Assembly (NCBI RefSeq): GCF_014174255.1
Contig: NZ_JABEQJ010000009.1
Coordinates: 62,001 to 126,000 of the forward strand
Source: Gluconacetobacter sacchari
GTDB lineage: Bacteria > Pseudomonadota > Alphaproteobacteria > Acetobacterales > Acetobacteraceae
Reading direction: 5' to 3'
Length of the DNA stretch: 64,000 nt
In this document: positions 7,408 to 62,202 of the stretch, piece by piece
Position numbering within the stretch: the stretch's first letter is position 1
How the letters are laid out: each line of letters opens with the position of its first letter
Notes under the pieces: model-generated
Seen by the model: only the letters and a program-made list of their open reading frames with translations
Databases searched by the model: none
Told to the model about the DNA's origin: nothing
Made by a program: the position numbers and the translations under genes

Positions 7408-7974
7408 TCAGGACGCGGCGTTTGCCGGCTCCGTCCGGGGCCACAGGACGCGGGTCGCTCCGATATCCAGCCCATGCCAGCGCGCCATGGTCAGCAGGCA
7501 GGCACCACCCACGACCAGCCTTTCTCCCGCCGGCAGGAGGGGGCGCGGATAGGGCAGGTGGTATCCGGTGCTGGCCAGATACGCGCCCAGCATCTTCACC
7601 GCTGCCACGAACCGGGCATGGACCGAGGGGCGGGGGAAGACGCGGTGCAGTGCATTGCCGATTTCCGGCATCCGCCCTTGCTGGGCGGCGGCGGTGGCAT
7701 GCAGGAAACTCTGTTCGGTCGCCGTGAGCCGGGTGGTGCCGGACGTGCCGACGGCCAGCCCCGGCAGGCACAGATGGGCCATGCGGCTGAATGCGTCATG
7801 GAAGGCGAGCGCCATGGTCGCGTGGACGGCACGTGGCCGCGCCGGAGCGGGTAGGGGGGTACGTCCGACCGTGCCCTGGCGGGCCGTCCATTGCGCGGAC
7901 AGGCGCCGGAGGATTCGGACCGTCAGTCTCTCGCTGGGGGACAGGTCGTACAGGCGGGGCATTGCGTCAGTCAT
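7408..7974 (-). CDS. Hypothetical protein, 188 aa
   Basis: I do not recognise this protein. It is a soluble, mostly helical 188-residue sequence opening MTDAMPRLYDLSPSERLTVR, rich in Arg and Ala, with a possible hydrophobic helix near the C-terminus (GGACLLTMARW). GGGAG lies six bases before ATG 7974, supporting the start. The upstream DNA is AT-rich (about 8005-8045), consistent with its own promoter. It lies alone, next to the degenerate receptor region. Codon use resembles neighbours. It may belong to a lineage-restricted family. Confidence 0.6.
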   Translation of the reverse strand: MTDAMPRLYDLSPSERLTVRILRRLSAQWTARQGTVGRTPLPAPARPRAVHATMALAFHDAFSRMAHLCLPGLAVGTSGTTRLTATEQSFLHATAAAQQGRMPEIGNALHRVFPRPSVHARFVAAVKMLGAYLASTGYHLPYPRPLLPAGERLVVGGACLLTMARWHGLDIGATRVLWPRTEPANAAS

Positions 7975-8199
7975 GGGACACTCCCGATCGGCGTTGCGTA
8001 TCGTGCGTGAGGATGACTTTAATTAAGAATGCCTCGCAATTGCAATAGTAATCCGACGGCTTCATCATGCCGTCATGACGCGTCAGGGTGTGTGGGGTTT
8101 CCAAAAAACATGAGATTTATTGAAGAAGAATCAACTTCATCACGAGTGCCGCTTCCGTCTGTCCGGGGGCGGCCGTCGCTGGATGTCTTTATCACGCTT
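7975..8199. other. Intergenic region between two minus-strand genes
   Basis: No frame here is convincingly coding. The left part (8005-8045) is AT-rich and should hold the promoter of the 188-residue gene. The middle contains no conserved motif I can name. Confidence 0.4.
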
Positions 8200-61069: not shown

Positions 61070-61098
61070 TATAATTGCAAATGAGATGCGTTTGCAAT
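61070..61098 (+). promoter_or_regulatory. Fur-box-like palindrome overlapping a TATAAT -10
   Basis: ATTGCAAA (61074-61081) and TTTGCAAT (61091-61098) form a perfect 8-bp inverted repeat; 61077-61095 matches the Fur consensus at 11 of 19 positions. A perfect TATAAT (61070-61075) abuts the left arm, though no good -35 is seen. The site lies 151 bp before the unknown gene at 61249. Confidence 0.55.
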
Positions 61099-61248
61099 AT
61101 TGAATGAAGGGCTGCGGGATCACCGGCCGTTATCCGACCATCGATTTTCCGGCTCGTTCCCGTGGCGACACCCTGCGGCAATGGTGGCGTTCGTTCGCCG
61201 TCCGACGATGCCGTTCCCACTTCGCCTGATGACGGGATTCTGCTGACG

Positions 61249-62202
61249 ATGAACGAGACAATCGGGTGCGACGCCTGGCACCTCACGCATTCGCAGCCGT
61301 CGCTGCTGGTGGATTATTTCGACCCCGGCCGGGGATTCCCGGGGCAGATCAACAGCCTCGTCAGCCGGTTCCAGGCGGTGCAGGCGATGTGCGTGGCAGG
61401 GGAGGGATCTTTCTCCCTGACCGAACTGCGCAACGAACTGGCCTTTCATCTGATCAGGATGTCCCGCTGGTGGCTGGTCGATTTCTGCCCGCCCGGCCTG
61501 ACGGGCGTGCGGGCGCCGCTGTTCATGAGCTATGTGAAGGCCCATGCGGCCCGATCGGTCGAGGACGAGGCGCTGCTCGATCTTTTCACCGTGCAGCAGC
61601 ATATGCGTGCCGGCGATCCCGGGCATATCATGGTTCTGGGACGGGAGAGCGACGGCGGCGGTGCGCGATCGATCGTCTATGGTCTCGATGGCCGGAAAGC
61701 CTTCCGCTTCACGACCCGGGCAACCGGCGCGGTGATCGACTGGTCTCGCCAGGCCTATCCCGATTTTGCCGGCGCGTGGCTCGGGGCGCGGGCCTATCAT
61801 TGTCCGGCGGAGACTGTGCGCGTGGATCTGCGCGAGCATCTGGCCGCCGAGCGCGAACATGGCTGGGCACGGATATGGCATCGCCGGCATTTTCATCGCG
61901 CGAGCGAAAACACGCTTGTCAGGCACTATCTGGATGCGATGAGCCGCCTCGTGGCGTGTCAGTCGCGGTTCGGCAGGGCGGAATTCGAATCGATCGTCAA
62001 TGCCGTCGCCTTCAAGATGGTCCGGCAGGCGGTCGAGCGGCGAATCCCGCTCGCCGGCCTGCTGGAGGAAGACGGCTCGCGGGACATGAGCCGGCGCGTC
62101 GCCGATTGTATCAGGCAGCGGGCATTTCGCTATGTCGGCCAATCCATCGATTCTCTCCAGCGCCCGAAACTGGAGGCCCTGATCGCGCGATCCGGCCCGT
62201 GA
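61249..62202 (+). CDS. Hypothetical protein, 317 aa, possibly iron-regulated
   Basis: I do not recognise this protein. It is a soluble 317-residue sequence rich in His, Arg and Trp. Notable stretches are HSQPSLLVDYFDPGRGFPGQ near the N-terminus, IRMSRWWLVDFCPPG, and WARIWHRRHFHRASENT, a basic His-rich patch that could bind metal or nucleic acid. There is no signal peptide or membrane helix. ATG 61249 has only a weak GGGA; an in-frame GTG at 61162 would add 29 residues. The Fur-like palindrome upstream hints at iron control, and the fur gene is its upstream neighbour. Confidence 0.6.
   Translation: MNETIGCDAWHLTHSQPSLLVDYFDPGRGFPGQINSLVSRFQAVQAMCVAGEGSFSLTELRNELAFHLIRMSRWWLVDFCPPGLTGVRAPLFMSYVKAHAARSVEDEALLDLFTVQQHMRAGDPGHIMVLGRESDGGGARSIVYGLDGRKAFRFTTRATGAVIDWSRQAYPDFAGAWLGARAYHCPAETVRVDLREHLAAEREHGWARIWHRRHFHRASENTLVRHYLDAMSRLVACQSRFGRAEFESIVNAVAFKMVRQAVERRIPLAGLLEEDGSRDMSRRVADCIRQRAFRYVGQSIDSLQRPKLEALIARSGP

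Follow-up and report, generated by a model that had tools for sequence, protein, structure and literature searches.

The window analysed here, a stretch of 64,000 nucleotides from Gluconacetobacter sacchari, carries a fur gene followed on the same strand by an open reading frame of 317 codons, and between the two lie a Fur-box-like palindrome, a promoter within this palindrome and a structured leader RNA which ends in a terminator-like hairpin (Table 1). In the first-pass annotation of this DNA the reading frame had been put forward as a possible iron-response component; the RNA between the box and the reading frame was missed, and we think that it is the stronger iron-response candidate of the two. 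As far as can be judged from the sequence, the earlier idea holds and widens: the box appears to drive a new structured RNA together with a protein of unknown kind.

Table 1 Features of the locus, with positions counted from the first letter of the window
Feature	Position	Strand	Basis
fur, 145 aa	60534..60971	+	Pfam FUR, E 8.8e-32; neighbour in close relatives only
Fur-box-like palindrome	61074..61098	.	0/100 shuffles; conserved in relatives
Promoter TTGCAA-17-TATTGA within the box	61075..61103	+	TTGNNN-N17-TA in 30/30 RNA copies
Structured leader RNA (leader copy of the putative sRNA family, degenerate)	61101..61222	+	R1 E 1.2e-15, R2 E 7.7e-11 (both models include or descend from this copy)
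P1 5' arm	61112..61117	+	Covarying stem
Core region, diverged from the conserved ACCGUCGAUUUCCCA	61134..61152	+	Sequence comparison
P1 3' arm	61160..61165	+	Covarying stem
Terminator-like hairpin, no T-run here (longest run 2)	61174..61214	+	Sequence
317-aa protein, no curated family model	61249..62202	+	ATG open reading frame, 317 codons

The palindrome had been described as a perfect 8-bp inverted repeat, and rightly so: both arms, ATTGCAAA (61074-61081) and TTTGCAAT (61091-61098), are perfect, and the inverted-repeat pattern with a gap of 6-12 occurs only once in the 64 kb and in none of 100 shuffles. The TATAAT reported to overlap it is present at 61070-61075 and shares two bases with the palindrome, but was not seen at this place in the relatives compared. 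Their conserved promoter consists of TTGCAA (61075-61080), a spacer of 17 bp and TATTGA (61098-61103), so that the box overlies the promoter itself.

The proposed Fur-box reading is well supported, since like boxes are found ahead of relatives and paralogs of the gene at places away from fur and, in the window genome, ahead of TonB receptors and a PKHD hydroxylase. Across this genome the box pattern gave 11 rows, which represent nine distinct sites (the reversed pattern gave one), and the neighbours were examined for eight of the nine (L089 was left out). Four of the nine sites precede iron-type genes, either for a PKHD-type hydroxylase or for TonB receptors, and one of these four is divergent from a periplasmic binding protein gene; proteins without a Pfam family follow two of the nine, one is the site discussed here, and some of the start codons behind the sites are inferred ones. 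The box L087 (contig 24, 39939-39962) lies between the end of a citrate synthase gene and a phosphoribosyltransferase gene 193 nt off, with no obvious gene to control. A second Fur-box-like site in the window itself (8022-8045, minus strand) is located about 48 nt upstream of an open reading frame of 188 codons (7411-7974, minus strand), which has no Pfam family and by eye resembles the one behind a box on contig 35 (L086); these two may represent a second unknown gene family of Fur type. Twenty copies of the protein gene come without the RNA leader, and in 17 of them there is a box which is matched by at most 3 of 100 shuffles, as scored with a matrix built from the boxes of the RNA copies and counted over copies that are mutually related. 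Two of the three copies outside this limit stand second in a tandem pair; at the third (L076) the box is weaker and is equalled by 14 of 100 shuffles. Where paralogs of the protein stand in tandem at L065 and L067, the box precedes the first gene only and the RNA leader is missing. Taking box and promoter together, we regard it as very probable that the gene of the 317-aa protein is under Fur-type control of the box promoter, and a putative iron-starvation protein is the best reading of its product.

The adjacency to fur, which the first-pass annotation had taken as a clue, did not prove informative: a fur match is present in just 7 of 42 loci, all of them from the genus of the window and several of the 42 stopping early at contig ends, and a Fur paralog with 63% identity is encoded elsewhere in the genome, along with a third, more distant member of the family. 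TGCAA-type sites are known for the manganese-type Fur homolog Mur in other alphaproteobacteria, and this, together with the two similar Fur proteins of the window genome, would fit a box which is read by Mur, with the whole unit answering manganese instead of iron. We hold this to be very unlikely given the above-mentioned neighbours of the boxes (TonB receptors, periplasmic binding protein, PKHD hydroxylase), the GATAAT-type boxes at the stand-alone RNA copies (see below) of one genus and the ability of G. diazotrophicus Fur to complement an E. coli fur mutant (PMC9368920). For G. diazotrophicus the authors of that study report one fur gene.

The reading frame of 317 codons had been called correctly, with a start region that is also conserved among relatives; the description of the product as His- and Trp-rich is weak, with 13 His (4.1%) and 7 Trp (2.2%) residues of 317, beside an Arg content of 11.7% and a pI of 9.16. 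That it belongs to no recognised family was borne out: searches of Pfam, NCBIfam and PHROGs with the window protein were empty at E up to 1, that of the PDB gave nothing below E 0.089, and an alignment of 31 members (A1), searched against Pfam, NCBIfam and the PDB, gave no family either, the PDB search being empty at E up to 10. Twenty columns of A1 are invariant, including W10, W74, W75, H99, D106, D111, D147 and E203. Many members end in a PRRCx tail; neither the window protein nor its nearest relatives have it. The X-Tfes XVIPCD family (PF20410) was considered and rejected; it matches 7 of the 31 members weakly (best 24.2 bits, below the curated cut-off of 24.9) and over about half of the model, and the window protein has no match to it. 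An AlphaFold model computed from two sequences reached a mean pLDDT of 49.5, and none of 111 Foldseek matches passed E <= 0.001; we therefore claim no fold for this protein. Neither a signal peptide nor a membrane segment is seen by eye. Of 299 genomes from the bacterial family of the window, 26 encode relatives, which represent 10 of 102 genera, and in a class-wide draw 1 of 289 genomes matched, namely the window's own. A named relative, from Acetobacter conturbans, has 39% identity, by which we take this bacterial family to be the Acetobacteraceae. A search of plasmids gave no match to the protein, a single match of 16 residues in viral contigs was set aside, and a match in Thermoleophilia (88 aa, E 2e-4) was kept out of the counts. 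Several genomes encode two paralogs, in tandem in two of them, and in four genomes (G002, G005, G007, G012) the gene is disrupted or fragmented.

Upstream regions of the subfamily to which the window protein belongs share about 120 nt after the box, with a GC-rich hairpin at the end and in many cases a T run beyond it. A covariance model built from 19 of these leaders (R1) found strong matches (E < 1e-12) in 19 of the 299 family genomes; 10 further genomes with weak matches only (E 4.6e-4 to 9.2e-3) were left out of the counts, and both weak loci inspected (L115, L116) are without box. Within the genus of the window 12 of 14 genomes have a strong match, 10 of the 14 with a leader copy and 7 with a copy standing alone. 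Both kinds are present in the window genome, where the stand-alone copy is found on contig 16 (62383-62498, minus strand). A second model (R2), comprising 30 copies with their loci (20 leader, 10 stand-alone), detects the RNA at E <= 1e-4 in 31 of 397 genomes from 5 of 102 genera, with two copies in 14 genomes. The stand-alone copies bear the same Fur-type promoter as the leader copies, and between stand-alone loci of two genera box and RNA are common (72-76% identity) and the flanks are unshared (blastn, E <= 1e-5). RNA and protein do not always travel together: seven protein-bearing genomes are without a strong R1 match (G035, G062, G074, G084, G115, G304, G326), two others (G096, G218) have the RNA and only leader-less protein copies, two (G005, G007) have lost the leader and the intact gene and kept the stand-alone RNA, and G002 retains the leader before its broken protein gene. 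One protein copy with a box (L057, in G304) follows a leader that has diverged, may form a P1-like stem and has no match to the models. Rfam searches of the window stretch, of 11 loci and of 4 stand-alone loci gave no match at the RNA, and the four weak hits from the first two of these searches are located elsewhere. By these comparisons, acetic acid bacteria have a structured, putative small RNA that has not been catalogued.

In the alignment of 30 copies the outer helices P1 and P3 have 95.0% of their cells paired and two-sided changes in 12 of 18 pairs, which none of 500 shuffles equalled, the alignment having been fitted to the P1/P3 structure; P2 is paired to 92.8% without two-sided changes. 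When six single copies were folded, z ranged from -0.24 to -5.91, the former value belonging to the window leader, whose fold is thus no better than that of its shuffles. A T-run of at least four follows the hairpin in all 10 stand-alone copies and in 12 of the 20 leader copies, and is missing in the other 8. By their sequence, the stand-alone copies are discrete structured RNAs with a predicted intrinsic terminator, apart from a coding gene. One might regard the leader as a mere conserved 5' UTR or as an unannotated small open reading frame, as the hairpin without T-run and the unremarkable fold of the window copy would suggest; with covariation on record, stand-alone copies that have terminators of their own, and no shared small frame (the longest frames in the ten stand-alone copies have 17-32 codons, and most of them run off the end), this seems most improbable for the family as a whole. 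For the window copy, which lacks the T-run and part of the core, we conclude that it probably serves mainly as 5' UTR and that the sRNA work would fall to the copy on contig 16.

In the leader setting, promoter and start codon are separated by the terminator-like hairpin, an arrangement expected if the RNA were a cis-acting attenuator or riboswitch, whose P1/P2 part senses a signal and whose hairpin sets the read-through of the protein gene. We find it unlikely that this is the function of the RNA, as stand-alone copies exist in unrelated neighbourhoods as well as in genomes with leader-less protein copies, and as a consistent antiterminator was not seen by eye; an attenuator role in addition to that of an sRNA could exist. 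Box, promoter, fold and terminators taken together point to a Fur-controlled iron-starvation sRNA, an assignment that we consider highly likely.

For the search of targets, the leaders of three gene families (acnA, sod and leuC) were compared in 10 RNA-bearing genomes, sod and leuC being named by length and family alone and the sod stretch at L208 not being the start of its gene. The acnA leader contains the identical 14-mer GTTGGGAGATCAAG in all 10 genomes, representing 4 genera, at 88-123 nt before the start codon and directly 3' of a promoter-like TATGTT. The predicted pairing of the RNA core with the acnA element amounts to -22.5 to -25.3 kcal/mol (mean -24.5), and none of 500 shuffled cores (mean -13.6 kcal/mol) reached as low a value. 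Since -24.2 is attained by 15 of 12788 overlapping 60-nt windows of the 64-kb sequence, and since the whole upstream stretch of acnA contains a place with stronger pairing than the element itself in 2 of the 10 genomes (G109, G223), the argument for acnA rests on conservation, not on energy. The pairing of sod (-11.8 to -15.5) and leuC (-14.1 to -18.7) is at background, leaving a signal in one of the three families, and other aconitase-like genes likewise gave background energies. Scans for long matches to the core's complement returned the RNA genes themselves and other sites, with no target at a ribosome site; 20 of the scan sites were read with their surroundings, and they lie mostly within long frames, none resembling a ribosome site.

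The same 14-mer could be a cis site of acnA, used for example for direct activation by Fur or for another regulator, with the match to the core being coincidental. Caulobacter Fur was reported to bind and activate acnA directly (PMC6120978), a Fur site has been predicted at acnA of G. diazotrophicus (PMC9368920), and further positions of the acnA promoter are conserved besides GTTGGGAGATCAAG. With the matrix of the RNA boxes, the stretch ahead of acnA shows no Fur box of the repressor type in any of the ten loci, 6 to 100 of 100 shuffles reaching the best score there, but this matrix is of the repressor type and an activator site may look different; the failure of all 500 shuffled cores to pair equally well argues against a chance match. 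Weighing these points, we give the cis site nearly an even chance, and name acnA mRNA as the target of the RNA core tentatively, at odds somewhat short of even. A conserved inverted repeat, GAAAA...TTTTCGAC, which is possibly the site of another regulator, is found at L195, L197 and L199 some 170 nt ahead of the pairing element.

Our overall reading, which we consider likely, is that of a Fur-repressed iron-starvation sRNA, which in one setting forms the 5' part of the transcript of a protein gene. Its visible components are the box, the promoter geometry, conservation, covariation, the stand-alone copies and the complementarity, from which we infer Fur binding, transcription, termination and the effect on the target along with its sign. 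The locus would be one Fur-repressed transcription unit, transcribed from the promoter inside the box when iron runs out. Its first product would be a structured RNA of about 110-120 nt, in which P1 closes a mostly unpaired core and a terminator hairpin follows, and read-through past this hairpin would yield the mRNA of the 317-aa protein; the second RNA copy, alone elsewhere in the genome, would be made from the same kind of promoter and end at the same kind of terminator. The RNA may then act in trans as an iron-sparing sRNA, in the manner of RyhB or FsrA, its core pairing with the conserved element near the 5' end of acnA mRNA and so lowering aconitase synthesis. Shared control and the arrangement of RNA and protein also allow for a more elaborate scheme, an iron-sparing module in which the Fur-controlled sRNA has a putative RNA-binding partner protein (in the role of Hfq or FbpB) and a stand-alone duplicate, which appears rather improbable to us.

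We rate the evidence, in so far as sequence can provide it, as strong for the RNA and its Fur-type control and as moderate for acnA as the target. Acetic acid bacteria live by iron-rich respiration, and an iron-sparing switch at aconitase would therefore, if true, tie iron to carbon metabolism in these organisms; the finding also yields a conserved partner gene next to the RNA. Among the titles and abstract openings listed by searches of mostly non-subscription literature, there is no report of a Fur-controlled iron-sparing sRNA in acetic acid bacteria. The words 'sRNA' and 'iron' are both missing from the main text of a transcriptome study of G. oxydans (PMC5756330), as are 'sRNA' and 'small RNA' from an RNA-seq paper on iron in G. 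diazotrophicus (PMC9368920).

Compared with the iron-sparing sRNAs RyhB, PrrF, NrrF, FsrA and IsrR, the RNA described here has the same kind of layout: a Fur-type promoter, a structured RNA of about 100 nt with a terminator and a conserved core. Aconitase, a common target of Fur-regulated sRNAs (PMC11257911), is a candidate target here as well. It differs from them in having no Rfam match and in that one copy forms the 5' part of the transcript of a protein gene, and for RyhB and FsrA the likeness in layout comes with no known sequence relation. Among alphaproteobacteria, RusT of Caulobacter is likewise an sRNA tied to iron starvation (118 nt), its targets being mostly outer-membrane transporters, but it is controlled by NtrYX and according to its authors has no Fur site (PMC11005374), by which description we set it apart. 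Caulobacter R0117 and R0088 are also up in a fur mutant, and R0117 in low iron too, but the latter is about 1 kb in length; a Caulobacter RNA of about this size was reported as Fur-regulated with no recognised Fur box (PMC6120978). The combination of RNA and protein finds a parallel in FsrA of Bacillus subtilis, an iron sRNA with partner proteins from the context of Fur, FbpA, FbpB and FbpC (PMC11257911). Compared by description, the Fbp proteins are small and basic, whereas the protein here has about 320 aa and a pI of 6.2-9.2 across its copies; an sRNA and a protein would here be under common Fur-type control.
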